Assembly: GCA_914767715.1 (NCBI GenBank) | Contig: OU612073.1 | Coordinates: forward strand, 20,398,001-20,462,000 | Direction: 5' to 3' | DNA: 64,000 bases | Source: Membranipora membranacea | Lineage: Eukaryota; Bryozoa; Gymnolaemata; Cheilostomatida; Membraniporidae | Shown: in pieces, positions 6,121-60,600 of the stretch | Layout: every line of letters starts with the position of its first letter | How positions within the stretch are numbered: the stretch's first letter is position 1 | Made by a program: the position numbers and the translations under genes | The notes under the pieces: model-generated | What the model saw: the letters and a program-made list of their open reading frames with translations, nothing else | What the model was told of the DNA's origin: nothing | Databases searched by the model: none

Positions 6121-6583
6121 GACGTCCAGATATCTTTCATGTTTTTCCATCATGGAAATCGTAAGCATTCATCATTCAATATGGGAGTGAACCTCTCATT
6201 CAAAGCATGGGACCAAAGTGATTCACTCTTTAAAAATCACCACATTCATATATGATCTTCACATCATTCTAATGCCTAATAAAATTAGTTCTTAAATTTG
6301 ACGTCCCTACTGCGTTATAATGAAATGGAGTTTGATTGGAGTGTCACATTTTAGTGTTCAGTATTTTTGCCTGCAATGCTTTATGCGAGGGTTTTATCTA
6401 CTGATATATATATATATATTCATGGACAAGGGTCTTACCCTCCAAAATCACATGGCAATATATGAAAGGCTTTTGCATTTCGTATTTTCATTTGCTTGGT
6501 TTAAAAGTTCAGTAATGCTACAGTGCACTTGTAAAACTTGCAAGCCCGCCAATGTTTTAGATGCTTTTTAATATTACTGGGAC

Positions 6584-6607
6584 CAATGAACTCCCTTCAG
6601 TTCATTG
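6584..6607. mobile_element. Short palindromic insertion, CAATGAACT type
   Basis: 24 bp with arms CAATGAACT and AGTTCATTG. It is flanked by a perfect 7-bp direct repeat CTGGGAC (6577-6583 and 6608-6614). Confidence 0.7.
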
Positions 6608-6710
6608 CTGGGACGTCAATCACTGTGTTATGTTAAAGCTGTCAGATCTTTTAGCTAGATTCAATTACTGATGCACAGGCTCCACTCTACCCCTCCCACC
6701 CTCCTGATAG

Positions 6711-6782
6711 CAGGGAGAGTGGGTATTCCATTCCCCCTCCCTGCTGCAGGGAGGGTGGGATATACTCCACTCTCCCTGCCTG
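6711..6782. mobile_element. Short palindromic insertion, CAGGGAG type, compound
   Basis: 72 bp beginning CAGGGAGAGTGG and ending CCACTCTCCCTGCCTG, with a second CTCCCTG/CAGGGAG pair in the centre. A perfect 7-bp direct repeat CTGATAG flanks it (6704-6710 and 6783-6789). It may be one copy inserted into another. Confidence 0.55.
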
Positions 6783-7304
6783 CTGATAGCGCGTTAAAAT
6801 TGTGTTTGAACAATGTAGTTGCCCCACCATGTTAAGAGGCAACACAACTCTATTTGCGTCATAATATTTTTTGATTGGTTAGTGTTGCTCCATAATTGGC
6901 CAGTCAATGTAACTGTAGTTTATTAGAAAATAATCTTACTTGAGCCGACACTAAAATTATGATAAATCATATCTGATTGGTTGGCAACAAAAGTTTTCTT
7001 ACACAAGAATTACTTTGCACCTCTGAAGTTAGAAAGTTTGGTTCACTTTTACCAGGAACAAAGTTTTAGATTCCCCTCTTTTAAAAATCAGTGTAACTAA
7101 AGAGTAGAACCAGTACTTGGACTAGGTGATTGGACTGGTAAAGCCTCTCTACTAAGTAGCTTGACCTACCTACCTACTCCTTGGACCTACAGGTGTCCTC
7201 CCAGATTCACAACAAGTGACAAACCCTCTACCTAGCTAGTGGCTAGTCCCTGTCTTTCTGAGCATTTCAAACATGGTTAACCAATGAGTATCTTTATATT
7301 TAAC

Positions 7305-7330
7305 CAAGGAGTAACTTTTGTTCCTCCTTG
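7305..7330. mobile_element. Short palindromic insertion, CAAGGAG type
   Basis: 26 bp with arms CAAGGAG and CTCCTTG. It is flanked by a perfect 7-bp direct repeat ATTTAAC (7298-7304 and 7331-7337). Confidence 0.7.
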
Positions 7331-7566
7331 ATTTAACCTTTTGGGTGAACTAATATGCCCATTGCCAAACATAACATTGGACTGAGCATCGGTGGTTGGT
7401 GTTTTGTTATAACAATATATATCCAGCCACCTCGCTTGCCGAATGCAATAATAGAAATGCAGTGTCATTTGCCTTAAAATTAGTACGTATGTTGCAATCT
7501 CAAGTATGGGTGGTCACCGATCAAGCTCATCGTACTTGTGATTTTATGTAGGAACTTCGACAAGAC

Positions 7567-10500: not shown

Positions 10501-12676
10501 TTATAAATACATCACCATGTTGCCCTATTATATTCAAAGATTCCTATTCTCAATGCATTGTAAGTTAACTGGAACATGTGTTTGTGAATATTAGTTGTTC
10601 AGGAGGTTCACAATGGTCTGAACCTAAACCATTATATGCGGAGGCCAAGGCTGGGTGGGCTAGGCTGACTAAGCTGCCAACAATATAAAGCTTAGTTAAA
10701 TGATTATCATCTGACTTCATAGCTTTCTCCCAACTGTTTTATCATTTTTTCCTCCATTCCATCTCTTGTTATTTTTAATCTGACGGTTTGTTGTTATACT
10801 TTAAGGTATGGAGATAAGTAGAAGCTATACACCAGTCTGTAGATTAAAGTCCCTCACTATACCCTCCACTACATCACTAGAGTTTATAATCAAAATCTAC
10901 ACTGACGGTGCTCTCACTCAACATATCAACTCATTATCACTAGGTAAGTATTAGCATACGTCAGTAAGTCTCTATCGGATCAGTTGGTAAGTCCTTAAAA
11001 TATCAATCAGTAGGTTGCAGTTGTGTCACACTGTAATTCTCACATGAATGAATGACAAAACAAGATGGGCGACTAGGAAATCATTAACTCATGTAAAAAA
11101 AAAGAGATGACTTCAATAATAAAAATACATGCTAACAATAGCATGAATTTTGAAATATGCCTTTCATATTTCATTATCTTTCACATTTTATTTAACTTGT
11201 TTTGATTGAGTTGGTAAACTAGCTTCCTCAACTGGAAAACTTCATGAAGTGCATGGAATGCTATTCAGACATTATTTTATTTCCGGCTTTTTTGTCCTAT
11301 GTTTTAAATTTTTCATTTTAATTTGTTCCACAGGAGATTCTCTAAAATTAAGTCACCACACCGGGAGTTTCTCTATATCAGAGTTAGAAGGTTACAGTAG
11401 TGTACTGTTACTGGCGGCCGGGACTGGCTTTACACCGATGACTAAACTAATCACTCATTGTACAGCAGCTGGTAAACAATCACATCTAGTCTTCTTCAAT
11501 AAAACTCAGGCTGACATTACATGGAGAGAAGACATAGAAAACTTCAGGGAAAACTCAAATGGGTAAAAATATAAATATCTCTTTATTCATTCTTAGAATC
11601 CTAGATAACATGAATGGGAAGAAGAAAAACTGTTGGAAGAGAAGATATGGCATTTCATCTACCTTATCCTTCTTGTAATCAGGGAGGGTGGGATCCTGCC
11701 TTCCCTGATGTTATTCATGATGATAAATCTGATCAATTTGTAGTTGTTTCCTTCTTGCTACTCTAAGCCATGTAAGTGTTACTCGTAACTTTACATGATA
11801 GGCTATATCTTTTTTTATCAGGTTATTGACAGTGACACATGTCTTATCACAGCCTGATAGTGAATGGCAGGGATCAACAGGCAGACTATCCATTGATATG
11901 CTTCAAACTTTCCTTCCCCCTGAGAGAAGATCAAATACATTCATAGCTGCCTGTGGACCGATTCCATTCATGAAACTAGTGCGCAGGTAAGTGATCTTCT
12001 ATACAAGGGATCGACACTTTATAAGTCTCAGTGTTCAGACAGTCTATAGGTATCTCTGTTATCTCTGTTGAATGAGGAAGTTTATCTTAGTAAACTTCCT
12101 CACCATTTTTCAATTTGTATCTGACTTTTCCAGAAACATAGCTTACTCCCTGTTCCTTGTCAGCTCATAATGAAATAATACATTATCACTGGGAAGGCGT
12201 AGTCCGTCCAATGGTAGTCATGAACTTGTAAATAACCTAATAATTGCTTAGTTCATTCAAGGAGTTACTCCTTGTTTCGTTTATTATTGTTAAGTCTATG
12301 AGTCCGCCAGTTTTACTCTTTCATCAGGATAATAGATGAGATTGCTTTGATAGCTCTATGTAAGTTTTATCGCAGAGAAAGGATAATATGTCAAAGCCGA
12401 ACAACTTGATATACCCAATTGATTTGTCCAATCTTAATTTAACATGGCATCAAATGGAGTAGTCTGAGCCCCCAAGACTCTTGCCCCCCTCCTGACGGCC
12501 CTTATCTCAAAAGCCCATTCTTGATTTTGTCAATAACGAAACAAAGCAGGGCCTTTGAGATAAGGCTAAAACAGAGGGTTTTATGTGCCATTTTAAAGTT
12601 TCATCTAATTTTTTGTTTTAGTCTTCTCAGTGATATAAGTCTGGAGAACAAGCAGGTTCATTTATTCCAAGAGTGA
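7567..12676 (+). CDS. CYB5R4: Cytochrome b5 reductase 4 (Ncb5or), 11 exons
   Basis: A soluble fusion flavohaemoprotein that passes electrons from NAD(P)H through FAD to a b5 haem; in mammals it is linked to ER redox and lipid desaturation. Exons: 7567-7717, 7944-8051, 8314-8414, 8923-9040, 9468-9594, 9790-9947, 10198-10497, 10806-10943, 11334-11562, 11822-11986, 12622-12676, giving 1650 nt and 549 residues (human about 520). Domains in order: the family N-terminal motif [10 protein letters not shown], cytochrome b5 with HPGG (haem His near 99) and [11 protein letters not shown] (second His near 122), a variable linker, a CS domain (about 202-290), an FAD domain with RSYTPV (near 360), and an NAD domain with AAGTGFTPM (near 430) and CGPIPF (near 521). 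No catalytic motif is missing. Exon 1 continues upstream to an acceptor near 7551, so a 5' UTR exon probably exists. Confidence 0.95.
8586..8667 (+). mobile_element. tRNA-like SINE head (or tRNA pseudogene) in a CYB5R4 intron
   Basis: TAGCTCAGTTGGTTAGAGC is a near-consensus tRNA A box and D arm. GGTCTCGAGTCC resembles a B box with one inserted base. GCAGTAGG at the start pairs with CCTGCTGC at the end like an acceptor stem, but the anticodon region is too long for a working tRNA. Unrelated sequence continues to about 8830 and may be the SINE body. The orientation is the same as the host gene. Confidence 0.6.
11680..11707. mobile_element. Short palindromic insertion, CAGGGAG type (diverged)
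   Basis: 28 bp beginning CAGGGAGGGTGGG and ending CTTCCCTG. The 7-bp flanks TTGTAAT and ATGTTAT match at 5 of 7. It lies in a CYB5R4 intron. Confidence 0.4.
12258..12274. mobile_element. Short palindromic insertion, CAAGGAG type (minimal)
   Basis: 17 bp, CAAGGAGTTACTCCTTG, palindromic around one central base. The flanks GTTCATT and TTTCGTT match at 5 of 7. It lies in the last CYB5R4 intron. Confidence 0.4.
12462..12486 (+). repeat. Dispersed repeat fragment, copy 1
   Basis: A 25-bp block beginning GTCTGAGCCCCCAAGACTC is repeated exactly in reverse complement at 24599-24623. Similarity beyond the core is slight. It is in a CYB5R4 intron, next to an inverted repeat CCCTTATCTCAAA / TTTGAGATAAGG. 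Confidence 0.6.
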
Positions 12677-12970: not shown

Positions 12971-14791
12971 CTAATTATCTTTTGGCTGACAGATTCTGGC
13001 TTCAAAGCATCTCAAGCTCCTCAGGAGGTGTGACCATTTTGGGCCTGGGTCCACCTCTGTCAGAGCGGACTCATATTCTACCCTCCTGAAATGAGAAAAA
13101 TACAACAATCACCAGGTGGTGAAAGGAGATTTTGCAGAGCAGTCACTGTTTCCTGAGCAATTGATGGTTGCAAGGTAAACCCGCAAAAGTTCTTTGTGGT
13201 TTGCTGTCTCACCCAAATAATGTGGGAATTATTATTATTTCCTACAGTATTAACCAGTAATCTGCATGTGGGGTACTAATTGACTTAATTGTACTTAATT
13301 TGATTAGGAACTGAAAGGTCAAAATACTATGTTGCTTCATACAGTACGGTTAAGAATAATAGATCTGTGTTGACGGAATTGGGTTCTGTTCTCATCTCAA
13401 TCTTGTTACCGGTAGATCGTATCGACAAGCAATGTCTATTAAGTAATGTAAATTAATGTAAGTTAGGATTTTGGCTACTTATAATATCTTGATGATGGCC
13501 AGACTCGTAATGTACTGCGTTACCTTCAAAGAAATACGTTCATAGTGCTGTGGATGATGGAGAGCTTGCACCATAGATATAAAAACTCCCTTTTTATATC
13601 CATGGTTTGCACGCAACGCAGTTTTCGGGAATTCAATGGTTGCTCAGATTGCAGTGTTTGTTAGTTTGGGATTGACAGGGATTTGCAGTCATTGGTTACA
13701 CACTAGATGACAAAATTAATATTAATGTCATTGATTTCTATCTAGTAAACATCTCAACTAATTCTGCATATATGCCAACTCCTGTTTCGATGGATCTTAG
13801 AATTAATTAATTTCTCTACCAGCTATCAGCGAATATTTAGGACCACTGAAAATATTAGATCAAGCGTGATCCAATTTGCCTGCATTTGGGTTTGTGTTGG
13901 CGGCTCACCAGTAGAATGGGAATGACCGGACTGCTGGCAATTTGGATCAAACTTGTTCTATGGAGACATGAAGTCAGCAAAGTTGATTCTCCTCGTAAGT
14001 CTAGCGTCAGCCCAGCATCAGCAAGGATGCGCACGCCAAAAATATATTAGCAATGTTTATGCTACATGATAAGTTATGCTGGGCTGGCGTTTATCCTACC
14101 ATCAATACAAAAAGCTAATAGATAATCCTACCTGTCTGTCCTAGGAGGGCGAGGCCCTGTCCCAGCACCATGGCCATTTGACCCACCAAGGGAACTCTCT
14201 GATCGGCTGTCAAAGAAACAATATAAACTCACAACAAAACCAGAGAAAGCCGGCTGAACAGCCATAATTGCACATAAATAAGCTGTGAATTATATTGCCT
14301 TCGTCACCTAAGCAAAATCAACACAATTCTGTATTCTTCTCTACCCTTGCATTACCCGCTCAGATATGTAAAGATAATTATCCATTGGTATTTGGTTTAT
14401 TTTTGTGGCCTTACCTGTTAACAGTCAGATCATTGACCCTCGAGGTACTAGAACTACTCTGTTGCTCTGTTGCTTGCTGGGATACATTAGTGATGGTGTT
14501 ACCTAGATGATAAATATGAAACAGAAATTGAAAGATGCATCATTATCTTTATTGATGGTGAACGTTATGTACGTTATGCACTCTAACTCTAGTATGACAA
14601 GCGTTCCAGAAGACCAGTAAAGACAAGTCATTTATCTTTCACACAAACTGGTTAGGAATTTAGACCATCACAGCAATTGTTTCTTGCATATGATCATTTG
14701 ATACCATCAATGAAGACTGACAGAGATTTAAAGTTATCTAATCTAAATCCAAAAATGTTTGAAGAATAATATACCAACCTCCTGTAGCCAT
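12971..14791 (-). CDS. Small orphan protein, 96 residues, 4 exons
   Basis: Exons on the minus strand are 14779-14791, 14415-14502, 14132-14206 and 12971-13085, giving 291 nt with matching phases and a TAG stop. The N-terminal 60 residues are low-complexity Ser/Thr/Gly/Gln/Pro (MATGGNTITNVSQQATEQQ, then SSLGGSNGHGAGTGPRPP). The C-terminus looks folded: RRVEYESALTEVDPGPKW, then a short Leu/Cys helix (SHLLRSLRCFEARIC). There is no signal peptide or membrane segment. It converges on CYB5R4 with 294 bp between stops. The first donor (GTTGGT) is weak, so the start exon is less sure than the rest. I do not recognise the family; the C-terminal block is where conservation should show. Confidence 0.5.
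13572..13604. mobile_element. Short palindromic insertion, CATAGA type
   Basis: 33 bp with arms CATAGATATAAAAA and TTTTTATATCCATG. The 8-bp flanks GCTTGCAC and GTTTGCAC match at 7 of 8. It lies in an intron of the 96-residue orphan gene. Confidence 0.6.
13858..13958. mobile_element. MITE family 2, copy 1 (about 101 bp)
   Basis: Terminal inverted repeats of about 23 bp: the left end starts GATCAAGCGTGATCCAATTT and the right end reversed starts GAACAAGTTTGATCCAAATT. TA stands directly outside each end, as expected of a Tc1/mariner-like TA target. A related copy in the opposite orientation is at about 23859-23957. Confidence 0.65.
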
Positions 14792-15629
14792 AGTTGGTGA
14801 AGGAAAGATAAATTGATCTCTTTTTTTATTATTTTATTTTATCTGACCTTTTAGCCTATCGGATTTTTAAAGCTTTGTTCCGAATCGATTCTAGTCGAGT
14901 ATCACTCGAGGAATTTCATACAATGAGATCCAATAATACGTACAATATTTAGGGTTCAATTCTCTTGCTTGACGGTGCAATGGAAATATGCCCAGCATTC
15001 ATTTTCATGAATTGATCACACTTGCTGATATGGGTTTTCACAACGATATTGTTTGGTCAAAAAGCATGAACTCTTTATCTTCTCGGTCTCATATCAAGTA
15101 TCAAGTATGATTGTTAATACTTATGTAACAAGATTCTTCCGAATACCCAATATTGTGTTTTGGTTTTTGTTTTTTGTTCAGGTTAGTCGGTCAACTGGAA
15201 TGTACTTCACTTAGTGGACCTACTGTGATGTAATGAGCAGTATACGATTATTTTAATTTTCAAATGCTTCTACTTAACATAGCATCTGGAATGTATCAGA
15301 CAAGACATCGCAACAGAGCTATAAGGGTTTCACTCAGAGTCAGAAGTCTTACAAATTAAGGAGCTAGTATTCCATATAGCTATTATATCCCATCATCAGG
15401 CTAGACTAATGGTATCTGTTACATGGACTAGAAAGGGGAGCCATAGTATTTTATATTTTCAAGTTTAAAACTTCTTAAGCTCATAGCCCGGGACCTTCCT
15501 AGGTATGATTAGCTGGTAGGAAACCCTTCTTCAAGACTGAGGTTGTATAGTAAGTCAAAGAGAAGCAATTACACAGGAATGCGTGTTATGAGAGTGACAG
15601 GGTTTGGATAAAGTCCTCTTACACTTAGC

Positions 15630-15655
15630 CATAGATTTAATATACTAAGTCTATG
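15630..15655. mobile_element. Short palindromic insertion, CATAGA type (diverged)
   Basis: 26 bp with arms CATAGATTTA and TAAGTCTATG. The 8-bp flanks CACTTAGC and TACTTAAC match at 6 of 8. Confidence 0.45.
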
Positions 15656-18149
15656 TACTTAACATATACCTCAAACTGCAAGAACTGACATGATCACACC
15701 ATTGCTGACAATTATGCTGTGTGGAACCCTCTCATCCCACTGACATCAAAGATGTGTCCTATCAGTGATAATATAGCACTTCAGACAAGACCCATTACCC
15801 TCTCTGCCACTAATCACAGGATTGCAAAAAATGATCAAAAGGCAGTTTCGTTCGTTTTTTCCTGACATGAGAATGGAGTATTGGAGGAAGAAATTTGATG
15901 GTGAGCAGAGGTTTTGGGAAGAAACATTTCCGAAGTGAGCACCAAACCATCATAAGTCAACTATGGTGGTCTGGTGTTCACGTTGAAAGGCGTGCGGCTA
16001 ATTAAATGTCCAAAGTTATTGAAACCTCTTAGATGTATTACCTCCCGCGACTAATTTGAGCATTAAACCGAAAAGAATTAACTCATACCTTATTTAATAT
16101 AAACTTTATTGAAAAGTAGGAGAAATAGAAGATGTACTCACTGTTTGTATCGGTTTAGTGTTGATGGTGGTTGACGTTAGTAACATTTTCACTTTTTACC
16201 TGCCTTTGAGTAGTTACTGCCAAATAAAAGGTGTATAATAATCCTTGGCCATTGAAGCTGCCGCTAGATATGATCATCAACAAGCCGTGCGACCATGAGA
16301 ATAATGATTGCTCATGGATAGGTAATAAATCACTGAATATAATGGTTTCTCATTTCAGTTTTTTATTTCATAATTGGTTGCATTCCTGGTCTCATGGGAG
16401 CAATATAATATCACTATTGAAAATCAATGGGATACATGACACATGAGTTGATATTCTGAAACCCGATTTCCTTAGCTTTTGTTGCTCGACTGACTGGGAT
16501 TTAGTTTTTTATAGCAAACAAGGACATTACTATATACTTGGTTAAACAGCCCACGTAAAGCTGTGTTAACTCTAATAGCTGCTCCAAAGGCAGCTCTCAT
16601 ACAAAGAGTCAATCAATAAGAAATGTCAACAGAAGTTTTAAAGTATTTTCGCTATTTCAGCAGGAGAGGGAGAACTCTCCTAGATTGTAGGTATAGAACA
16701 CTGCAGGTATGGTACATGGTCGGTGTTAGCAGCCGTCATAGTACGAAGCTTGGATGATCTTAGTTCGGGCTCTGAATGATTTATAGGTTTCCTGGGTGGG
16801 CAAAGGTGCGGTGGGCGAAAAATATTAGTACCTTAACAAGTTTACACAAGGATATAGGGATCTTAACACCTGAAAACTGCTGTCAGGATTTTCACATTCA
16901 AATGCTGGTGGTTGCCACTTCATGATATGGATAGGGAAGTAGTTATTTATCCATGTCACATATCTAGGCTTATATTGTCCCACAAATTGGTCGCAACTGC
17001 CACCCAGAAAAAAAGTGGTAAATGTACCATATATTATGATTTAGAATGCCTCCTAAAGAAAGAACTTAAAGGGTATATGATACATGAAATGGAGTCATAT
17101 ATCATAATGTTCATAGGCATGACTAAATGAAATGCTGCAGCTATCCGAGCAAAGCCAAAACTTCGCCATCTACATGCTCCTATGGTGTAACCCTGTTGAA
17201 AATTTCTTCACGTGCATGGTACAAAACATTCGAAGACTATCGAAGAGTGCTAATTCCAAATTTTAGCTCAATCAAAATGTCGTAGTAGTTCTAACATATA
17301 TTCCAGAAGTCAAGAAGTGTGTGCTGTATTCATATTAAATAATCAAAAAAATGGACATTATAGTGTATGGTAGAATTATTTACAACAATGAGGGATCTTA
17401 TGGGAAAACAATGAGGGAGTTATTGCCTCCTAGAGAAAGATGGCATTACTCCCATCCAACTTTCAGCAGACACTAATATCACAGATTTTTTTTCTTTTTG
17501 TCTTATCACTACAGTACCATTTACTTTTTTTTTCTTTGAAGGAAACTTACTGCATTAGGTGGTCTGGTGTATTGATATGTTTTTTCAAACTTTTTCCAGG
17601 TTCAAACAAAGCTGTGAAAATAACTCATTGTACATTGCAATGTGCCATCAATTTAAGGAAGTACTGATTTAATGGTTGTGGAAATAATTTGTTTTGTTTT
17701 GAAACCTCTCTCCACAGGCATAGGGAAGACATTGTATAAACGCATGAATTAATTTTGCAGGATTCATTGACTGTAAAACTATATGTTTGGCCTAAAGTAA
17801 GAAGGTTTCAATTTAAACAACTATTCAATGAGTCAATAAGTTTGAAAATTTATAAACAAAGTATATTATACAGTGGTTCCAATATTTCGCTTAATTAGTA
17901 GATTGCTACCTAATATGCAAGGTTGAATGCAGCAAAAATGAAAAAAAAAACATGAATTACTACAATATACGAGATGCCTGCATCTGCATATAAAATGAAT
18001 AAAAGTATGTTGATGAAAAATGAATCATTATTACTATAATTAATTATGTTACTAATTTAACCCAGGGAGTATAAACCCTGAACAACGGTGCAGGATATAA
18101 TAGTATAATTTCATGTACTTGCCCTCTCTTGATAAATGTGAGCATAAAC

Positions 18150-18181
18150 CATAGATTTAAAAAACTGTTTTTAAATCTATG
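18150..18181. mobile_element. Short palindromic insertion, CATAGA type
   Basis: 32 bp with arms CATAGATTTAAAAA and TTTTTAAATCTATG. It is flanked by a perfect 8-bp direct repeat GCATAAAC (18142-18149 and 18182-18189). Confidence 0.75.
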
Positions 18182-18383
18182 GCATAAACCCTGGGAAATC
18201 CGTATTGGAAATGCAATGTAATATTTCAATATTCATGCTTTTAACCATCCCTACAGCGCAATGAGTATCGAAAGAGTTCCATCAAACAAAAGGGGGTAGA
18301 GATCATCTGCATTTAAAAATTTAAAACAACAGTGATAATCAGTGAAGGAAAATCTTTTGTTGGATGTAAAAATGGAAGACATT

Positions 18384-20365
18384 TCAGACATGCCATATGC
18401 AGGTACAGCAGTTGACAGGTTCATAGCACAGACCTGTCCTAAACTCCTCATCAAGTACGCTATTCTTCCATACCTTATTCGCTATCCAGAAAGGTACAGT
18501 CAGTAGGAAAAAGGCTGAAAAAAACCCCAAAAAATGGTAGTTACAGCAGATCAGTTTAGTGTGTCTCCTTAGCAAATTGCAAAATTTGTCCCAGCAATAG
18601 TTGTTGCTGTTGCATGCAAAACAATCACTGAAAGTTATAATACAAAAACAAAGCATGAATGTCAGATATTCATGTGGCATACAATTCAAGATTCAGCCCA
18701 GTTGTAATAATCAGTCACTGGGAGAGCCCCCTCACTGCTGGCCAAGTTTGTGTTATATTTTTCATACTTACATATGCATAGAATACAAAGGATCCCTTCT
18801 GCTAGCTCAAACCAATAAAGCTCCTCTGAGTAAATACCCTGATATAGATAAATAAATGGTGTAAGGAAAAATGCATAAACGCTTGCATAAAGGATTGGTA
18901 GCATAAAAGAAGAACACACCCTAGTTTTTGGCGTGACTAAGGAATGAGCAGTCCAGCTACAAGAATTCAACCCCCCCCCCCAATAGACTGGCTCTGATTT
19001 AGGCCTCAATTGGAAGTTGTCCTCTCTCCAGTTTGGTACTTTTAACCCACGCCGCATAGGAAAAACGTGCTGAAAAGAGGGTTATCTTGAAAACCGCTTA
19101 TAATAGGATAAAAATTATTTTTGATTCAGAATCTGCAACATTAAAAACTCATATGGACATAGTTTAGGAAATAATTGTAGTATTTGGCTAGTCAATTATA
19201 GCATTTTCTGTCTGTTTTGAGGACAATTTGGCAGAATCTTCTTGAGTTTCGTCACTAAAATTTAAGATTTATCAACATTCAAGCCTCCAATGATTTGGAA
19301 ACCCTGTCTCACAGGGTTTTCAATGGTGCAGACTCTGAATCAAAAATCATTTTTATCCCAACATAAGCGGTTTTCAATATAACCCTCTTTCAGCAGGTTT
19401 TTCCTATGCGGCGTGGGTTAAAAGGACCAAACTGAAGAGAGGACAACTCCGAATTCTGGCATAAATAAGAACTCAGAAATCTGTCTATACACAAAGTCAC
19501 AACCAATCGTGCTGAATGTTTGTCAGAGAACTTACACATTCTTGAGCTTGTAATCCATAGGCGGCTTGTATGATGCTGTATAGAAATGTACATCCACCAA
19601 ACACATGGAAAGTCATCTTCAGTTGATAAGGAACAGGATCCATCAGAGCAAACAGTATGGAGAACCCTGAAAAGGAGGAAATTCAATATGCATGTTAAAT
19701 AATAAGGCAATATCTACTCACATATTTATGTATATTTTTCATATATCAATTGACAGGAGTGTCATGACTCATTAAATTATTTTTGCAGACAGTATATAAA
19801 CTCATCAACACGATGAAATATTCACAGAATTGTATCGGACCCTGAATAGCTTGAAATACTATCAGATCAAATGGATTGGTAATTTAGCAAATATCTGACC
19901 AGTGAAATAACATGATTGATAATCTAACATAAATTTGGAGCTGAAATTTGTGTAATGTGATATACCCATAGACTTAGTAATAATAATAATAATAAATAAT
20001 AATAATAATATTATTAAGTCTATGGATATACCGCAATAACAATTTTAAAAAGGAGGAGAGAGGAAGGCTCTGACTAGAGATCTAAGGTTATGTTGAGATT
20101 TCCCATGAAATCACATAGACTAGTCAGTTTTATGGTGGGTGGTCCCTTTTTGAATCGGTCAGAACTATTCTGATCAAAGTTTTAAGAAGGAAAGTGGTCT
20201 GTTTGAGTAGCTGTTTTCTTACCGATCATAAAAAATGTGAAGCAGATACCAGTAGCCAGCATATTAAAGAGTGGGAAGGCACAGAATCGAGTACTCCGAG
20301 GGTTGACTAGAACATAGATCTCTGGTATCAGCACACACAGAACACATAGTATCAGTAATACTCGT
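18384..20365 (-). CDS. Multi-pass membrane protein, 5' incomplete
   Basis: Phase-compatible exons on the minus strand: 20223-20365, 19536-19666, 18772-18838, and 18474-18514 either reading through to a TGA at 18384 or spliced onward. The part seen holds about four hydrophobic segments: RVLLILCVLCVLIPEIYVLV, then NMLATGICFTFFMIGGFSIL, FHVFGGCTFLYSIIQAAYGL, and FELAEGILCILCISFFLLTV. The order, including an H..GG segment followed by a WFELAE segment, recalls the Frag1/DRAM/Sfk1 (TMEM150) membrane family, but this is a weak resemblance. The first exon begins in phase 2 and no upstream exon with an ATG was found. Its second intron carries a 504-bp MITE. The C-terminus is uncertain. Confidence 0.45.
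18984..19487. mobile_element. MITE family 1, copy A (about 504 bp)
   Basis: A long terminal-inverted-repeat element. The left end starts TAGACTGGCTCTGATTTAGG and the right end closes CTCAGAAATCTGTCTA. Inside, both arms carry GAGAGGACAAC, GTACCAAACT-like and ACCCACGCCGCATAGG blocks in inverted orientation. It has no open frame. A 12-bp poly-C run precedes it. It lies in an intron of the multi-pass membrane protein gene. Confidence 0.85.
19967..20024. mobile_element. Short palindromic insertion, CATAGA type, with a TAA microsatellite inside
   Basis: 58 bp with ends CATAGACTTA and TAAGTCTATG around (TAA)n. It is flanked by a perfect 8-bp direct repeat GATATACC (19959-19966 and 20025-20032). Confidence 0.7.
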
Positions 20366-25107: not shown

Positions 25108-26194
25108 TGCTAGTATACTAGACCTTCAGCAACCTGATTTGATAAAGTAAAGTATTAATTTCATTTACGCTATAATATTTCCGATGTTTGGGCATTTGTT
25201 GAAGTTCTATAGATCTTTTTCCTGTTTACATTTATTGGATCACAAACTAATTATTATGGCTTGAGCCGATTCTACTATTACCCACTTTTTGATGAGGCTC
25301 CAGGCTAAGTCAAGGGTGAATCAGGTCAGTTTTATTTTTTCCAAAAAGGATTGGAGTGGTAGGTAAGCTAAGCAGTCATATATACTTCATTATATACATA
25401 TATATATCCAATCAGCAACCATTATTAACAGTAAATCCCAATAAGCTTGAGAATATACATGCTAGTTACTACTAATTTGATTTTGTTTAGGTAAATAGAT
25501 AAGTTTTCCATGCATGTCTAAAAAAAAGTGTGTTAGCTTAGTCAACCTCAATGTCATGTATTGTATGTTAGCACAACAAACAGCGACTGTAAGTGTTGTT
25601 TAGCTGTCCATAACTCAGGAAGTATCTGTTGTTGGAGTTCATCCAAAACTTGTTTTATTTTCTATTTACTTCATTCAATATTATAGTCTCTCTTTCTCCT
25701 ATATTACTCCTTGACCTCCCTCATTTTTGGTGGGGACCTGAGAGATAACTTACTAACACAATATGTCAGTGTGCATTTCCATCAAGCAGATTTGCTATTT
25801 GACCATCTGCTATATTGGTTGGAGGTGTATAGTGGTCTGAAGACGCGTTGCTAGGCAAGTTGTTCGATTGTTAGGCCAGTCATAATATACAAATAATGGT
25901 TGCTTGAGAAGGAAAGTGTTGAACTGTGAGCAGTTGTGGAAATTGGCCTATACGGGCCTATATGGTGTATAGGAAGTTCACATCAATGCCTACACTCCTT
26001 CAATAAGTGTACTTATTGCCTATCACTGTTGTGCACTTTGTATGCTTGGATAAGTTTGTTTTATGTTGTATTGTAGGGTTTGTTTACTTTTGCTTTACTG
26101 TTTGCTTCAGTCAAAACATGCTCTTAGATTTAGGCACAACAAGTCAAAAAGATACACCAGAAACACTTTTTAGGGCACGAATATCAAAAAACTT

Positions 26195-26290: not shown

Positions 26291-26583
26291 GATCTCAATG
26301 TTTGGCGTATCGGCACTTTTTTATTTCCATTTCCACCACTGACTGTGAGATGACGGAAGTATAGATTGAGCTGAATGCTTAACTTACGAGAACAGATTTG
26401 CAAGGTGACTGATAGAATACGAGAAGATCTTATGATGCAGGCTAATGTTTTGGTGTGTGTCTTGATGGTGGTTTTTAGATGGTGGTTGTAGCAAGGAGTC
26501 CTTGGTTGTAGTGACACATCTCAAACGGCAGATGTGTATCCAAACACCGGGCATACAAGGTGTCTGTTTATGGTTACATTGAC

Positions 26584-26606
26584 CAGGGAGAATGCCATTC
26601 TCCCTG
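26584..26606. mobile_element. Short palindromic insertion, CAGGGAG type
   Basis: 23 bp with arms CAGGGAGAATG and CATTCTCCCTG around one central base. It is flanked by a perfect 7-bp direct repeat CATTGAC (26577-26583 and 26607-26613). Confidence 0.75.
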
Positions 26607-35480: not shown

Positions 35481-35489
35481 TGGAGCTCA

Positions 35490-37040: not shown

Positions 37041-37381
37041 TTCTTTTTGGGAATGTGTATCATTGTATGTATGTCAACCAAACGTGAGTGGAGAGGATCA
37101 ACCAATAAGACTGAGAATGTAGAGGATGCAACAATACTATAAATCATATCTTTATCCCTGAGTGTCAGTCCAAGAAGTATGGTCTAGTTGGTCCAAGGAG
37201 TCCTTAGTTGGTCAGTCCACAGATCAAAATGTCTATTTTTATTGTTATTGTCAAGTCAACTATTACTATTGTCCCCACTAATATACAACTTGTTCTATTT
37301 CTCAGTATTTAGGTAGTTGGATACTGCAGTGCCGGTGGTGTGATAGAATGAATTAACCCGGCAATTAAAACAAACAAAGCA

Positions 37382-43300: not shown

Positions 43301-46300
43301 AACATGTTATCATACTTGGAAATAAGGTAACAATTATTCTATGAGAACAGCATTTTTATTGAACATCTCAAAGAAGAGCAACTGCGAAATCCTTTGTTCT
43401 CAGTCCCTCTTAAATTGAATACTGTTTCACGCCTTGTAGAGTAACGACTGGATATGAGTTTACACTGAGTCGACTTTGTTCAGTCATAGCGACAACCCCA
43501 GCAGGCCATCTCTTCAAACAAGTTGTAAGTAGAGATGTGACGTGTATTTGTAATCTGCCCCAAAATATGGGTGGGGGATGGGGCGGGTTGATGATAGAAG
43601 TATTTACTCCTTACCACAAAAGTTCAAATGATAAAATCTATTGATGAAAATGAGGATGTTGAATACTCAACCAGCATGTTCACATAAGCTCTACACATTA
43701 GAAAATGTGATCGATTTTTTACAGTTATTGAAGATGTAACCTTGATTATGCGATCTCTGAAATAGGACTTGAGTTTGTGCACCATGGATATAGTGACAGA
43801 ATTAATGTTTCAGGAGAAGCTGTTGTTTAGTATGCTGCTATCACAGTATGTACATCTCAATCTGATGGCTGTAGACTGCTGGCACTTTGTGGCTAGGTAA
43901 GTATAGACCTGATCTAATCATTAAAAATACCAACCAGGGCAAAAAACCTGGCAGCGGAAAGTCAGCTTGGCCGACGATCAGCAAAATATATCTGTCATAC
44001 CCTGTACCAATGAGTACCAATGGACAACGCTGTGTACATTCTTATATTTATTTTGAGATAACTTGGCACCTTACTATCTCACTACTGCAGACCAATCACT
44101 TTTTCTTTCAGCATATTGCCTTCATAACATGAGCTAGTTAGGTAATAGTGATCCAAGAAGGTATAATATGATCTTTCGCATCTTTCGCTTATTTTATTGT
44201 AGATATAGTCCAGATCGTCTGCCCTTGTCTCATAGCCTATCATTATTAGATTTACAGAATACTGGGAGACTTACAGATAAACAACAGCAATCTATACAAT
44301 GTATGCTATCCAGGCTCATACCTCTACTGTCAGTACAACAACAGGTGTGTGTACATAGAGGATGACATGACTGGACATGTGCCCATCATGTACATTCCCG
44401 TTTTTGAGATCATGTGATCAGGGTCACCGAAGTGATCAAAGGTTCGATTGAAGATATATTTTTGTGTTTAGTATTGGAAGGTGGGACAGGTTTTGTATCG
44501 AAGCTACAAGATATCGCTTATAGCAGTATGTAGAGGTTCGCTTATGTCTTTTCGCCCTTAACAACAAATTGATAATCAAAAGGATTGTTATAATTACCAA
44601 TGGAAATCATTCTATACATGTCACAGAATTTACATTGGGTTTGGCCAGTTGCTCTTGAAGATTCTTCTACTGATGTTTCTTATACATAGTCTCCTAAAAA
44701 CAATAACTTTGTACTTTCAATGGAGTGGTCTCACTTTGGTCAAAGGAGAAGATGATTCTATAATGTCATATTTCCCATACATTACCATATTGTTGTTTCA
44801 TTACTGCTTTTTTATATAATTCTTTGTTTTAATTCACCGGATATAACTCTCATGTTATACAGCAAAGAGTTGTTCGTCATCCGTCTGCCTTCGACTCCGG
44901 GGTGTTGTCTAAGTCTTGGTTTGAGCAGAACCTACACACTGATATTGAGTTACTGATCACACAGTCTATACAGCGACATATCACAAAGCTGGAGAGTGAC
45001 GAGGCTAATCAAAATCAGAGAGGTGTACTGTTTTATATGGTAAGTTAACGTGATACATATCGCCTTTTCAGTTTCTCAGGAAGTACTTATCCAATCTCAA
45101 CAATTCCCTCACTGTCACGTCGATATTAGTCTGACAAAAGTTTCGTACTGCAAATTTTTCAAACTGCAAGTTTCTAACTCAATTATTCATTAAACTGAAA
45201 TACATTGACAACATATTGGCAGCGATGGGCAAAATGATGCAGTAAATTACGTTATGCAAAAGCGTGATGAAAAACTATGAAGTATTACATGCAAAGCACA
45301 TTGTGCACAACAATGGATCACCTATTTTGCAGTTTTAAGCCTCAAAGACAGGAGGCCTCAAAACATAAAGTTTTACTAAAATGTCACTCCTCCAGTTAGT
45401 GACATGCCTCCTCTATATGGTAAAAGCATAAACGCATAAACCAAATACCTCAATAACAACGCACAGAGGGCTCAATTTAAAAAAGGCACTTTTTGCCCCA
45501 AAATGAACTTTCAGAGGTCACTGCGACACAACGTCAAATGTTTGGGAGGTATCAAATGTGGAGATAACTATGTTATGAATGCTGCACTTATTGTTGGTCT
45601 TTACAGTTCTTTTCTTTCGCATTTGCTTGGAGACCAAGATCATAGACAAAACACACATGACCAAGATTATCACAAAATAAAGAAATATGTGAGGAAATTG
45701 CCTGGGTGGAAATGAATACAGAGTACACCCTATTCTTTTTTTTTGGGTACTCAGTTGATGCTCACTCACAGTTTTTGAAAAACATTATAAACGCCTGCTG
45801 AATATGATCATATCGCCAGCTGAATAAATATGTTACTATGGTCCCAAACATTTAATTTTATGATTGCTAATAAGGTTTGTTCTCTCATTTTAAGAAAGCT
45901 ACAATCAGACTACTGAACACAAAATTCAATGAAAACTCTAGACAGACGGAGGAGATTATCACTGAAGCATCAACACTTATAGCTGATATGCTCACGGATA
46001 ATATAGATAATCCTGGTATATATAACTGTCTCTGTTTGGCTCTTCAGTCATTCACAAGTAGAAGATACCACACACAGTTACTCAGGGTATGCCCATATAT
46101 GGAGTTATTGTGGAGACACTCATCAACTTTAGTGCTTGTTTTGTGAATGTGATGTATTTTTTCACTCCATTTTACCAAAAAAGGGAGGGTACTGTCTTGT
46201 GATCTGTGAGGTCCAGATTTAATTCCCTGTACCTGCATTTTTTTATGATTTTGGTACTGACATGCCATTTATCCTAGCCATATCCTTGCAGAACGGGACA

Positions 46301-48451: not shown

Positions 48452-48658
48452 CAATTATGACATTGGTTATAGTATATTTTCTGTTTGTTGGCTTATCCTT
48501 ATCGTTTTCTGGGATATTACCCATGATTGTCTTCCCTTTTCATTTTCTTTTAATATTTTTGTTATTTTATTTGAAAGACATCGATTATTGCTTTACTTGT
48601 TCTTCTCTACTGAGTCAGACTAACAAGACCAAAGTTAAGTTCTCTGGTCTCATGTGAT

Positions 48659-48688
48659 CAGAGACGGTATATAGTCGATTTGTCTCTG
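48659..48688. mobile_element. Short palindromic insertion, CAGAGAC type
   Basis: 30 bp beginning CAGAGACGGTATATAG and ending TTTGTCTCTG. The 7-bp flanks ATGTGAT and ATGTAAT match at 6 of 7. Confidence 0.6.
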
Positions 48689-48700
48689 ATGTAATGTGAT

Positions 48701-48729
48701 CAGAGACGGTATATAGTCTAGTATTCCTG
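48701..48729. mobile_element. Short palindromic insertion, CAGAGAC type, adjacent copy
   Basis: 29 bp starting CAGAGACGGTATATAGTC as in the neighbour at 48659, but with a degraded right end (TATTCCTG). The flanks ATGTGAT and ATGTCAT match at 6 of 7. Together the two look like a tandem duplication or repeated insertion at one target. Confidence 0.45.
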
Positions 48730-49321
48730 ATGTCATGTCAAGTGGTTCCCCAATACTCTCTCAACGGGCTAGCTCAATAGCTTTATAAAATAAATTGTAT
48801 TTTCAGATAGTTATGTTATTTAATTTTTATCCAAGACGCTACTCAATCATTTTATTAATGGTTAACAGTTTTTCACTTACATGTACATAGTATATCAGAC
48901 CAGGATAAAAACCTACATTTTCGAGAGCGTTTTTTACCACAATTCGCACTAAATACAATTTGCTGTTAAGACAAAATCATTATCCCTTTCATTTCGAGAT
49001 CTCAACCGTTGCCTGGGATTTTAGTTGTAGCGTGTCACTATCAATCGCATTACCGTCAAATTTTGGTGGGATGTGGGCGATAGTGAAATGCCAATACCAT
49101 CAGCCCGTGCAACAGTTGAGTATTTATCTACCGCAGTGTAAGAATGAATATGAGGGGCTTAACAAATGAACATCTGGAGCTGCTTCTCTGCTGTCAATGA
49201 CTATTATTTATAATCTTTGCTGCTGTGGTGGCTTCAGTGATTTTGATTATGCCACAACAGCTAATGTTCGAATATGACTCGTAATATTTTTGAAAAAATC
49301 AGTACAGATTGAAAATTGGGC

Positions 49322-49351
49322 CAGATACTATAGATATATCCATAGTCTCTT
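49322..49351. mobile_element. Short palindromic insertion, CAGAGAC type
   Basis: 30 bp beginning CAGATACTATAGATATATC and ending CATAGTCTCTT. It is flanked by a perfect 7-bp direct repeat ATTGGGC (49315-49321 and 49352-49358). It has the same 30-bp length and core as 55184-55213. Confidence 0.75.
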
Positions 49352-49974
49352 ATTGGGCGTTATTTGTTTTGACCTTAAAATAAGTACTGTGACTCTTTGC
49401 TGGGTACTACTTGTCCGCAATTGTTTTACATTGATTACCATAAAGATAATTTCTGAATCACTGCCAAATCCATACCTGCTTGACACCAAACATAATCATT
49501 AAAAGTAAATGTCTGTTATGAATATGAGGAATGTTGGTATAAACTCAGCACGCTTTGATCTGGCAGATGAGTGACATCAAACACTCTCAAAATACACAAA
49601 AACAAACACTCTGATCAGAAACGGAAGTTAGATTATAGTACTATTTTGGTAATGTTATGACCATGCTATGACAGACCAAATAGAAGTAGTAAGATTTGTA
49701 AACAAAGAATTTACACTGCTGTAGTAACAGTAAACAAGAGTTCACCTGACTCATTGAATATGCTATCGTAATCGGATGAGTAATCGCCATTCCATCCTGC
49801 CCACAATGGACTATTAATCCAGGCCAAAGAATGGTAGATCCATCAAACTAAACATTCTCACCACAAAAATAAAGCATGACCTTATTGCCCCACAGTCTGA
49901 TTAGCAAACAATCCCAAAACAGTTTTTTTATGAGCATGACATTGCTGCATCGATGTGGAAAACATATAAAACCA

Positions 49975-51056: not shown

Positions 51057-51059
51057 CTA

Positions 51060-52650: not shown

Positions 52651-52655
52651 TCTCG

Positions 52656-54490: not shown

Positions 54491-54639
54491 CTTGTTTAGT
54501 TTATCGTTGTTTTTAATGCACCAGTATAGTGGATAGTGTAGTTGTTATGAGTCTTATCATTTGCATTTAGTGTAGGTCTTCTTACCTATCATGTTTCATA
54601 TCATGCTTACATTTATGTACATGTTTCTTCTTGCGGTGT

Positions 54640-54800
54640 GGTGTGGCGTGGCGTGGCGTGGCGTGGCGTGGCGTGGCGTGGCGTGGCGTGGCGTGGCGTG
54701 GCGTGGCGTGGCGTGGCGTGGCGTGGCGTGGCGTGGTGTGTTGAGGTATGGTTTGGTGTGGTGTGGTGAGGTGTTGTGTGGTATGGTAATTTCACTACAC
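54640..54800. repeat. (GGCGT)n satellite with degenerate GGTGT flank
   Basis: About 19 near-identical GGCGT pentamers run from about 54645 to 54737, then degrade into GGTGT/GGTAT. A second low-complexity stretch of GAGAC units follows at 54870-54930. All open frames here are artefacts of the repeat. Confidence 0.9.
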
Positions 54801-55183
54801 TGTGTTGACTGTAGATATATGTCATCATAACAAATGTTTGAAGAAGTCTTGAGATGTATCGAGAGTGTCTGTCTCGATGAGACGAGACGAGACAAGACAG
54901 TGTCTCGATGAGACAAGTGTCACGAGACCGGGAAATGTCTGATCTCGTTGCCATCCCTATAAATTAGGCAGGTAGAACTGAGAGGTGACCAATTTTATGC
55001 TCGAGAATCTATCAAAATTAAAGCTTTTCGATGATCCGCTCATTGAAATATATATAGCATGTTCATTTTGTCATCCAAAATACTAGCATTCATACAGAGA
55101 CCATAGAAAATTACATGTTTTACTAGCCTTCATAGCATAAATAAACAGATCATAAAGTCATAAAAATCTGAGTGAAGTAAAAC

Positions 55184-55213
55184 CAGAGACTATAGATATA
55201 TCTATTGTCTCTG
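55184..55213. mobile_element. Short palindromic insertion, CAGAGAC type
   Basis: 30 bp beginning CAGAGACTATAGATAT and ending ATCTATTGTCTCTG, palindromic except for one pair. It is flanked by a perfect 7-bp direct repeat GTAAAAC (55177-55183 and 55214-55220). Confidence 0.75.
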
Positions 55214-55773
55214 GTAAAACGTATGGGATGATTAAATGACACAGTGATAACATAGAGATAAAAGAAGAAAATAGAACAAACGTTCTATTAACTCAGCATT
55301 AACCGATATAAATACAATAAAGATACGAAGGTTCAGGAAAATGATGGAAGAACTTTTGCAATGTAGGGCGGTCGTCGATTTCTCAGGTATAAAGCACCCA
55401 CTCCTGTATGATGTAATCTCCCTGTGCTGTTTCGCTGATGCAGTGGGGGGGGGGGGAGGGGGTCTTTGTTATCCTCGATGCGATGGGTGAAGATGATACA
55501 TTGGGGAGAGTTCTGTCTCGATAAAATATACTAAATGTCCCTGGTATCTCCTAAACTTCTCAGTTTTGTAACGTGACAAGCAGATGGGTAGACAATTATG
55601 GCTATCTAAAACCCTGCCTATTACGGTGATCGTTCTTTTAGCAGAGCACCTATCTGTCTGGAAAGTTTAATATACAGAGTGGATGGGAAGTAGTTGGGTT
55701 ATAGCGATGATTTGGCATGTTAAAAAAATTTCCTCTGTCAGAAATAAACTCATAAAACTTTAAAACATTAGAA

Positions 55774-56334: not shown

Positions 56335-56524
56335 ATTTAAAACATTACGGATACATTCTCTAAATTCTTTCATCTTTTTGTCATAAACGACTTTTTGCAT
56401 TTGCCATAACCCATGCTATTATCTGGTGACCTCTGGCCACAATCATGGCCAGGGGCCACAATCTCATTACAGATGCTGCTCATTGCATGTTTAAACCAAA
56501 TGTGTTCATGGATTAGTCTGCTAT

Positions 56525-56846
56525 GCAGACAGGGCCGGGGCATTATTGTCCGTTGGGCTCCCGGGTTTACAAACCCTATGCCTACCCTGGCGTCAGCCTC
56601 GGTGTGGCAGCTCACTCACTCTATTGTGACACATATAGATGAGCACTGTAACGACCATGTCTCAAAAAATACCTGGCAACTTCCGAACTCTCATCAACCG
56701 CAATTACTACTCAACACCGAAGGTGTAGAATTGGATCAGTCTGCTCCGCAGACAGGGCCGGGGCATTTTGTCCGTCGGGCTCCCGGGTTCACAAACCCTA
56801 TGCCTACCCTGGCGCAAGCCGAGGTGTGGTATCTCGCATACTTCAA
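56525..56846 (+). repeat. Direct duplication of an about 95-bp GC-rich block, 226 bp apart
   Basis: CAGACAGGGCCGGGGCATT starts at 56525 and again at 56751, each followed by GGGCTCCCGGGTT(T/C)ACAAAC and CCTATGCCTACCCTGGCG. It lies just downstream of the LINE fragment and may be its 3' region. An open frame spans both copies, but they are read in different frames. Confidence 0.7.
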
Positions 56847-57650
56847 CACTATCGAGCTTGTCAGATCTTCAAATCCGTAACTTGAACATTTCAATAATAG
56901 GCAGTAGCCCTCATCTTTTCCGAGTTATTTTATTTAATATTCAGTGTAACGTCTTTTCTGTTATACCTGTATATATGTTTATTTTATTAACCAGTCATTC
57001 ATTCATGTAACATGTAAGACGCCATTGCCCTACCATATACATGCCACACTGTACGCCTGGCTTACTCACAAAAGTGTATAATATAAATGCAGTCAAAACT
57101 AGTCAAGGTACACAACAAAATATTAATCCATTGAAGTTATTCATAAATTTTGCAATTCAGTGATTGAACCCATAACTGATCTTTCTGTACTTCATACGAC
57201 TTAAACAAGGTGACGAATGATATCACACATATCCGCGTCATACAAGCATAGTCTTGTCGGAGTGCCGACGTAGGGTACTGCTACTCAGGAGCTAAGTAGC
57301 ATCGACACGGAGTCTTTGAAAATGGTGCAAGCCTACCGGTAAAAACCTCCAATAGCGATATATGTTAAATCTTAAAGTCATAATCTAAAATATATTCCCA
57401 CTAAGCGTAAGGAACCGCCATAAGGAACTTGTACAAATTCTAGCGATTGCGAGAGTAATATGCCTTTAATTGAGGAACAAAAATTAATCTAGTGTGAAAA
57501 AAGAGGAACTTTTTCACAAAATTATAAATGCAGTAGTGCTATTTATATCTTGATTGAAAACGTCACTAAACTACAGCTTTAAATATCAGGACAAGCTTTA
57601 ATTGGTTTCATTTTGTAAACATAGTTCAGACTGCAGACATCAGAATTATC

Positions 57651-60600
57651 ATGTGCCTCGAGATTTCCATCATCCGCTCCATGGTATGTAGTTAACACCT
57701 TTGTGAGCAGTCACATGTTTGTTTAGTGACTAAGTTGGTTAGAATTGAAGATTGCTTGTAGTTATGAACTGTGTGGATGAGTAGAGTACACCAAGGCTTG
57801 CTGTTACTTTACAAACTCTGTTATTTCAGCAGGTGATGGTGATATGCAGACTTATTCTGATTCCAGCGGTGATTGCTGAGAAAGACATTGAGTAAGTTAT
57901 GTTGATTGAGCTGTAGTTTGATTTAAGGGCTCAGGCGGCTGCAATGCGAGTAAGTGGCATTACTCACGTTGCAGCTGTCTGCACACTTAGACTACATGCC
58001 AACTTCCTGCTGTTTTATGCGTTTGTTAGAACAACAGGTATTTTGTTAAGTGCATGAAACAGAGCTCATCATGTTTTAGCACTGTCATGTGATGAGTGAA
58101 TCAAGTTTTACATTCCCTCGTAACTGAGCTTACAATATTTATAGCATGTAAGATGTAAGAATTGTTTTGGCTGTTTTCACTGAATCTCATAAATCTGTTT
58201 AATTCCTCTTAGTTGAATAAAAGCTAATAAACTGGATAATAACGATGAAGTTCTAAACAGTTCCTCTTCTTTTCATCATTGACATTATTACACTGTTTTT
58301 TTATTATTGTTGAGCTAGTGATTTAGGATCAAAGCTGTCCCAGAGGAGTTATTTTTCTAAACAAACTTAGGTTATATGAGTATATGAATTAGAAAATGCT
58401 TACATTGTAATTTGAAAATTTCTTAACTTATCCAGAATACCTGACGGAGCTCGGTTAGGTACATATATTTCTACAGAACACAATACACATCATATAGAAC
58501 TGGATAAGTTTGTATCTGGTAACCTATTACTCGCCGAGGGAACTAAGCTAAAAACAACCGATGGGGAGACCTCGCAATTGGTTTCTGGTAAGGCATGAGT
58601 AGGCACTCTAGGGTTTAAGTTAGTTTACCATCTATTCTGTTGATTGTTTTTGCTAGGCTATAGGTCAGGTTTATTCTTATTAAAACTAAAATAATAGTTA
58701 ATTGAAAATAATATATCTCTTCGTTCAGTGCATTCATATATTAGCTGAAAACTTGAATAAAAATAACTGAACAAAAAATTTGACCAAGATCTAAACTAAC
58801 TCATTCTGACCAGAATCTACTTGACTCATTAGTCTAGTCACAGGAAATATGATTGAGCTGTTTATGACAAGACCAAGAAAAACAATAAACATTACTTGTG
58901 AAGACAGGGAGACCCCCAATTTGTACTGAAAGTGAAACCATTTCTTCTTCTTGTTCTAGGTTCTGAGTTTATCGAAAACAACACATATGTAGAGGGGATA
59001 GGATCAGCTGCAAAGTACAGTCACATGATCAGCTTCATCCAACTTAGCACTACCCATGTGCTCGTAATTGACCGCTGGAATCATTGTCTAAGGCTAGTAG
59101 ATCGTTTCAGTCAGCAATCTTCCCATTTTGCCGGCAACTGTACCAGAGGACCAGGCTACAGAAATGGTGTAAGCCCGTTGTTCTACCAACCATGGTCAGC
59201 AATCAGAGACAATCGGGACGGTAATAAGTTGCTTCTGACTGAAAGTGGAGCTGTAAGAACAATAAATATCAAGACTGTCAGAGTCGAAACTCTAATCAAA
59301 GATGATGGTCTTTCTCGACTAAGAGAATTAACACAAGAAAAGATATCTGGGGATCTCTATATAGTCATCTTACACGGTGTTATGAAGTATACAAACAGTG
59401 ACGGGTCACTGCGTCTTTTGGCTGGGTCATTAGTGCAAGGTTTGATGGATGGTCCATTGCTTGAAGCTCGATTTAATCACCCTAATTCCATTGAGATGCT
59501 GTCACCAGGAAAACTTCTGCTGACTGATTATGATAACAATATGCTGAGAACTATTGACTTAGATGGAGACACTACTGGCTCAATTTGTTCGGGTGGTAGA
59601 GAAAGCATCAATGGAGGTCTTGAAACATGTCAGATTGATGGGCCGACAACATTATTAAGAGTCAATGACACCGTGGTCTTAATTGGTACAAAACGGATGA
59701 TTCGAACACTGCAAGGTAAGATATACATCACGTACTTCATTTTGGTGAGGGGGAACCGGGTGAGCGGGTCATGTCATAATCAGATATTATATGACAACTC
59801 TCTGGTTCGCATGTACTGTTGCTGAGACTGTCAGTTTCTATATACTACAATATGTACCCGGATATTGACGGAAGATGTTGCCGATTTTTCATGTAATTAA
59901 CCAAGAAACCCTAGACTGAAAACTGTTTGCTTTCAAATCTCACACTAACGGGTCACTCTGCATAAAAGTGCAATCCGAATTATTACATTAAATTTTTTAT
60001 TGTCATGGGTTTTTTCAACAGCGAGGCTGACAGGGGAGTAGTCAGATGTGCTTGTAACAGCTCAACCACGGCAGCTTTGGTCAAATCATCAAAAATACAG
60101 AGAGAATTGCTGTCTACGCAACAATTCTCTCTGCTTTTTAGTGTAAACTACAAATTAACACTAAACAAGTTTAGGTTGTGAGCAATTTATCATTTTCAAG
60201 TTTTTTCATTATTTTCCTATGGGAAGAGAGACACAACTCTGAGTAGTAAATAGCGGGCACGCTAATTAGCGCCATCGACCCATTCTTTTTTGGGGATGGT
60301 GAGATAGCGCAATCAGAATCGTAATCGTTAATGCGCTTGCTATTCACTGCCAGGCGATTAGTGCCGTAAGAGTTGTGGGTTCGAATCCCATTGGGGGAGC
60401 TTTCAAGGTTGATTGTCCCAGCCCCCAGAACCTTCGGGTGTATTCCTCTTCAGGTTTTTTTTATTATTTTCCAGTTTCGCTGATTGAAGACCATCAGATG
60501 TCCCTAAATACAACTCTGATGACTGACTTAACGGTGGTAACAACCACAGGTAAGAACAACCCTAACACTCCAAGCTATACTCTAAACAAATCAATCGGTA

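Follow-up and report, generated by a model that had tools for sequence, protein, structure and literature searches.

Short Palindromic Cores between Target Repeats in a Bryozoan Genomic Window as Probable Excision Footprints of P-Superfamily Transposons

Introduction

A 64-kb stretch of DNA from contig OU612073.1 of Membranipora membranacea (positions 20,398,001 to 20,462,000, hereafter the window and numbered from its first base; G+C 37.6%), presumably part of a eukaryotic nuclear genome, carries numerous tiny palindromic cores with CA..TG ends, bounded on both sides by target repeats of 7–8 bp. These cores are probably footprints that DNA transposons of several P-superfamily families left behind on excision. 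The anatomy of the sites and its statistics, the shortness of the cores, remnants that retain only one element end and a single 352-bp element of the same build are all directly observed in the window. A first-pass annotation of this DNA had listed 17 of the palindromes and read them as an ultra-short mobile family, which is probably wrong: a ceiling near 34 bp, variable junctions, the one-ended remnants and the 352-bp element fit excision better. Its more basic claim, that each core marks a place where a transposon with CA..TG ends inserted and duplicated 7–8 bp of target, is borne out by flank statistics that stand above their controls.

Under the excision reading, an element of normal size would insert and duplicate its target, over 7 bp in families with CAAGG, CAGGG, CAGAG or CAATG ends and over 8 bp in the family with CATAG ends. 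Its transposase would then cut one strand at the element tip and the other up to ~17 nt inside the element, and the donor site would retain no more than ~17 nt from either inverted end. The two tails would finally be fused by end joining that involves trimming, microhomology or filler, and the resulting site would read target repeat, at most 17 nt, filler where present, at most 17 nt and target repeat. The P-type transposase, the size of its stagger in this organism and the route of repair are the parts of this scheme that we infer. P transposase cuts one strand at the tip and the other 17 bp inside, producing 17-nt 3' tails (PMC7776569), and it is because of these tails that sequenced P junctions of Drosophila share this anatomy, in which a copy of the 8-bp target, at most 17 nt, microhomology or an insert, at most 17 nt and a second target copy follow one another (PMC2895639, Tables 1-3).

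Repeat-flanked cores against background

The window was rescanned independently of the earlier site list. A strict scan for exact 7-bp direct repeats around cores of 10-34 bp, with inverted ends agreeing at 6/7 positions or better, found seven cores, every one of them CA..TG, where ~0.3 were expected from 50 first-order Markov resamples. The second scan, with exact 5-base ends and a repeat length of 7, returned eight cores, each starting with CA, against 0.8 in 10 resamples; one of the eight, at 50624, has a perfect repeat but lies inside a repetitive open frame and was dropped. The first-pass annotation had proposed a check of flank identity, which was run on the palindromes of the window by comparing perfect 7- or 8-bp flank repeats with the same test at offset flanks. 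Among the CA..TG palindromes, 152 in all, nine are bordered by such a repeat, where offset flanks give 0.12; among 1,764 other palindromes the corresponding counts are 1 and 1.02. For cores with a single recognizable end, one end word together with an exact repeat was sought, and the null consisted of 300 sets of other CA-words matched in occurrence (111.8 versus 113). Six such cores were found, where the null sets average 0.56; not one of the 300 sets reached six and one reached four, which is the count that remains when the two weakest sites are set aside.

Some longer candidates were dropped. Allowing one mismatch in the repeat adds cores of 77 and 82 bp (at 35770 and 46886), a yield close to the 0.65 per resample expected as background, and a 72-bp core at 48176 has a perfect 8-bp repeat around ends that are not inverted. 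Direct repeats of 7-9 bp at spacings below ~40 bp exceed the resamples throughout the window, beyond the CA..TG sites, and this excess was not used as support.

Inventory and structure of the sites

The inventory amounts to ~27 footprint sites in 64 kb, comprising 13 two-ended sites with perfect repeats, eight two-ended sites with decayed repeats (accepted where at least 5/7 or at least 6/8 flanking bases are alike) and six one-ended sites; no strand is assigned to any feature. The end words are CAAGGAG (in longer spelling CAAGGAGT), CAGGGAG, CAGAGAC, CAATGAA (in longer spelling CAATGAACT) and CATAGA. Among the perfect two-ended sites, the CAATGAACT family is represented at 6577..6614 (24-bp core 6584-6607, repeat CTGGGAC) and 34416..34450 (21-bp core 34423-34443, repeat AGCACAT), the CAAGGAG family at 7298..7337 (26-bp core 7305-7330, repeat ATTTAAC), the CAGGGAG family at 26577..26613 (23-bp core 26584-26606, repeat CATTGAC) and the CAGAGAC family at 55177..55220 (30-bp core 55184-55213, repeat GTAAAAC). 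Two CATAGA-family sites belong to the same class, at 18142..18189 (32-bp core 18150-18181, repeat GCATAAAC) and at 19959..20032, where a 58-bp core with an AAT-rich middle (19967-20024) lies between copies of GATATACC. Two short sites have 13-bp cores, at 26485..26511 (core 26492-26504, repeat GTTGTAG, with an alternative parse as an 8-bp repeat around a 12-bp core) and 37187..37213 (core 37194-37206, whose last base is A rather than G, repeat GTTGGTC). The site at 49188..49226 has decayed ends (25-bp core 49195-49219, repeat CTGCTGT), and that at 49315..49358 has a core whose last base is decayed (30-bp core 49322-49351, repeat ATTGGGC). The two remaining perfect sites are nested at 6704..6789, where an older 33-bp core (6711-6743) between copies of CTGATAG at 6704-6710 and 6783-6789 holds in its right edge a 32-bp core (6747-6778) with the repeat CCTGCTG. 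This inner repeat includes the last four bases of the outer core, and the outer end sequence consequently predates the second insertion.

Decayed repeats flank three CAAGGAG-family cores, at 12251..12281 (17-bp core 12258-12274, 5/7), 29743..29783 (27-bp core 29750-29776, 6/7) and 30633..30676 (30-bp core 30640-30669, 5/7), and one CAGGGAG-family core at 11673..11714 (28-bp core 11680-11707, 7-bp repeat, 5/7). They also flank two CATAGA-family cores with 8-bp repeats, at 13564..13612 (33-bp core 13572-13604, 7/8) and 15622..15663 (26-bp core 15630-15655, 6/8), and two CAGAGAC cores within 48652..48736 (48659-48688 and 48701-48729, both 6/7, the inverted ends of the latter being weak). The one-ended sites lie at 7163..7190 (core 7170-7183, right end only, repeat GACCTAC), 37373..37404 (core 37380-37397, repeat AACAAAG), 40840..40887 (34-bp core 40847-40880 with a single clear end, repeat ATGCCAC) and 45633..45667 (a CATAGA-type 19-bp core, 45641-45659, with the 8-bp repeat ACCAAGAT), to which are added two weak candidates at 34564..34588 (core 34571-34581, repeat GGGGCAC, in a G-rich flank) and, weakest of all, 2082..2124 (core 2089-2117, right end only, repeat TATCTTC).

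This inventory overlaps broadly with the first-pass list. Sixteen of the 17 palindromes listed there are CA-starting cores whose flanks agree at 5/7 or 6/8 or better; the other, at 57942 (57935..57977), is left uncounted, as its repeat reaches 6/7 only in a 29-bp register that lacks the last core base. All eight perfect flanking repeats named in that list are present, and five two-ended sites with perfect 7-bp repeats (6747, 26492, 34423, 37194 and 49195) are absent from it, as are the six one-ended sites. The suggested preference for targets ending in C, seen in seven of those eight repeats, is weaker over all perfect two-ended sites (8/13).

Core length has a pronounced ceiling. Twenty of the 21 two-ended cores measure 34 bp or less (range 13-33); the one that does not is AAT-filled and 58 bp long. 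In the CA..TG class with perfect repeats and inverted ends, this core and the nested 72-bp composite are the only ones longer than 34 and shorter than 352 bp. Within each end family, cores differ in length and centre: those at 6584 and 34423, for example, have CAATGAACTCCCT in common at the left, outside their palindrome, and differ in their right-end junctions. Only two pairs of cores are nearly identical (26492/37194 and 49322/55184). The cores at 48659 and 48701 have their left flank and first 18 nt in common, which may reflect duplication by templated repair. Repeat length follows the ends, in further support of the footprint reading: CAAGGAG, CAGGGAG, CAGAGAC and CAATGAA sites parse best with 7-bp repeats, and 8-bp repeats occur at CATAGA sites only (13572, 15630, 18150, 19967 and the one-ended 45641), while the junctions at 26492, 37194 and 34571 can be read with either length.

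Elements of normal size and coding content

One intact non-autonomous element, 352 bp long, lies at 34949-35300 (34942..35307 with its 7-bp repeat CTTTTGG), with CAAGGGT..ACCCTTG ends that immediately enclose an exact inverted repeat of 21 bp. It was the sole match of its scan, scoring 42 against a best of 26 in 20 resamples. To judge from its sequence, it would be a relative of the footprint families rather than a proven parent, as its end word CAAGGGT differs from theirs. CA..TG pairs more than 90 bp apart with a 7-bp repeat number six, against ~2.7 per resample, and only the 352-bp element among them has strong inverted ends. Three 8-bp CA..TG pairs were seen against ~0.5 per resample, two of them being footprints and the third a candidate element of 411 bp (25931-26341, or 25923-26349 with its repeats), with ends CAGTTGTGGAAAT..ATTTCCACCACTG inverted at 12/13 bases and the perfect 8-bp repeat ACTGTGAG.

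The open frames of the window are short; the 105 of at least 75 amino acids were scanned with Pfam and matched a dual-specificity phosphatase, an oxidoreductase NAD-binding domain, an RTE1-like protein, two reverse-transcriptase pieces and weaker families. One reverse-transcriptase fragment of a retroelement lies at 35823-36599 (Pfam RVT_1). No RNA family reached its gathering threshold in the window, and no transfer RNA was found there. Other repetitive features include a site at 20760-20812 where perfect 8-bp repeats GTTAAGTA enclose a 37-bp core CTAACA..TGTTAG, a hit whose background is not negligible and which may be a footprint, or else a micro-element, from another superfamily; a long inverted repeat at 41597-41885, MITE-like (MITE, miniature inverted-repeat transposable element) or foldback-like, with 75-nt arms that are 85% complementary and outer ends CCGCATAGGAAAAA; ~150 bp of 5-bp tandem repeats (GTGGC/GGTGT) at 54635-54787; and imperfect tandem repeats of 41 and 87 bp within an open frame at 37606-38064.

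Comparison with known systems

The closest counterpart is the excision of the Drosophila P{wa} element in spn-A mutants, which has the same succession of target repeat and element-end tails, asymmetric junctions, common cores of 30 and 32 bp, and ATT-rich inserts. The 58-bp AAT-filled core of the window finds a parallel in such inserts, one of which, 49 nt long, is listed for a mus308 allele (PMC2895639, Table 2). Table 1 of the same study yielded 63 cores for a tally of lengths, with three isolates excluded for deletions beyond the target: 20 are shorter than 12 bp, 29 measure 12-34 bp and 14 measure 35-44 bp, so that 49/63 lie at or below 34 bp. The fly events, however, are laboratory excisions of a single engineered element with an 8-bp repeat in Rad51-deficient flies and include more cores above 34 bp, whereas the window sites are natural remnants with at least five end families and mostly 7-bp repeats. 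P itself duplicates 8 bp (PMC7776569). Galileo, a member of the P superfamily in Drosophila, is recorded with 7-bp target repeats and, in three copies, 8-bp ones (PMC4168063, PMC2775673), but its terminal repeats are long, and the window repeats do not follow its target consensus GTANTAC. Outside insects, zebrafish Pdre2/THAP9 resembles the window families in its short 13-bp inverted ends with flanking target repeats and differs in that these repeats are reported as 8 bp (PMC10983969).

Weighing the explanations

Several observations weigh against excision by a P-type transposase. Among cores of at least 12 bp, only 1/21 exceeds 34 bp here as against 14/43 in flies (Fisher p = 0.014), which may reflect a shorter stagger, less frequent filler or another mode of repair in this genome; given this difference, a ceiling near 34 bp is consistent with 17-nt tails and does not fix them at 17. 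Approximately one third of the fly junctions tallied (20/63) are shorter than 12 bp, and the comparison with the window covers cores from 12 bp upward. Each of two cores is present, almost without change, at a second site as well, a pattern that a mobile micro-element would also produce. Wild-type flies are described as yielding mostly incomplete templated synthesis rather than simple rejoining (PMC2895639), and zebrafish THAP9 excision in fly cells left larger flanking deletions (PMC10983969). Within the 64-kb window no parent element with the footprint end words was found, and no P or THAP domain occurs in the 105 scanned open frames, though introns could hide one.

It is nonetheless very unlikely that the 13-33 bp palindromes themselves transpose as ultra-short MITEs. 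Such elements would account for the perfect target repeats around palindromic cores and for the two cores found nearly unchanged at different targets, but a mobile micro-element needs both ends and a common core, and the window holds one-ended remnants and, beyond the two near-identical pairs, families whose length and centre vary with no single core sequence. Recurring junctions are also normal in fly excision repair, as the count of 14 isolates that stands twice in Table 1 of PMC2895639 illustrates. For fly P, terminal requirements of no less than 138 and 216 bp are cited, although Anopheles P-MITEs have fewer than 100 bp (PMC1562414). We consider it equally doubtful, if not slightly more so, that the cores are extreme internal deletions in which interrupted gap repair left only the two element tips. 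The main product in wild-type flies is indeed described as the result of incomplete synthesis with subsequent end joining (PMC2895639); retained lengths should in that case form a continuum, and the interval from 34 to 352 bp is, as noted, nearly empty. A chance origin is rejected on the resample, offset-flank and one-ended controls, and the prospect that the sites are chance hairpins, terminators or regulatory palindromes is vanishingly small: the same end words do occur in nine viral-contig palindromes (eight distinct, L002 and L004 being the same), but their flanks agree at no more than 4/7 or 4/8, and the sites of the window stand above all three controls.

Footprints of another superfamily, or of a mixture, whose transposase likewise leaves element ends behind, would be an unlikely source. 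Dada, KDZ and Merlin are candidates with target duplications of 6-9 bp. Such an origin gains from the absence of an identified transposase in the window frames, from end families that differ in sequence and repeat length, and from a distribution of core lengths unlike that of fly P. Against it, the ceiling near 2 x 17 bp matches the P stagger, which a review terms atypically long (PMC7776569), and the P superfamily itself includes both 7- and 8-bp repeats (PMC4168063). The first-pass annotation had named P-superfamily and hAT-like transposases together; we retain the former as the best candidate and reject the latter on footprint type and repeat length. The 8-bp duplication expected of hAT elements is confined to CATAGA sites, the other families being best parsed as 7, and CATAG ends presumably do not fit the hAT end consensus. 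Footprints of the hAT element TcBuster resemble the window sites in showing small junctional changes at a vacated target site, but they consist of a few extra bases or deletions, ascribed to hairpinned flanks, and retention of both element ends does not figure in the passages of that account drawn on here (PMC3499496).

Biological meaning

If the cores are P-superfamily footprints, their type of scar is already known from Drosophila genetics, and the new part would be a dense natural archive elsewhere, in which several end families and the two repeat lengths are represented. Our literature search met no account of a natural archive of P-type footprints, which is not proof of absence. We tentatively suggest, with distinctly less confidence than we place in the origin of the cores, that P-type excision repair has left a dense natural archive in this genome, in which ~27 footprints against one clear intact element would make end joining, not templated restoration, the usual fate of a vacated site, and in which a long staggered cut would be common to several P lineages with 7- and 8-bp duplications. 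Were this true, the ceiling on core length would allow the stagger of a transposase to be read from genome sequence alone, even in lineages without biochemistry. Each site would likewise be a natural record of germline end joining, including its trimming, microhomology and filler, and a comparison of footprint and intact-copy numbers would show with what frequency vacated sites undergo rejoining instead of template-based restoration.

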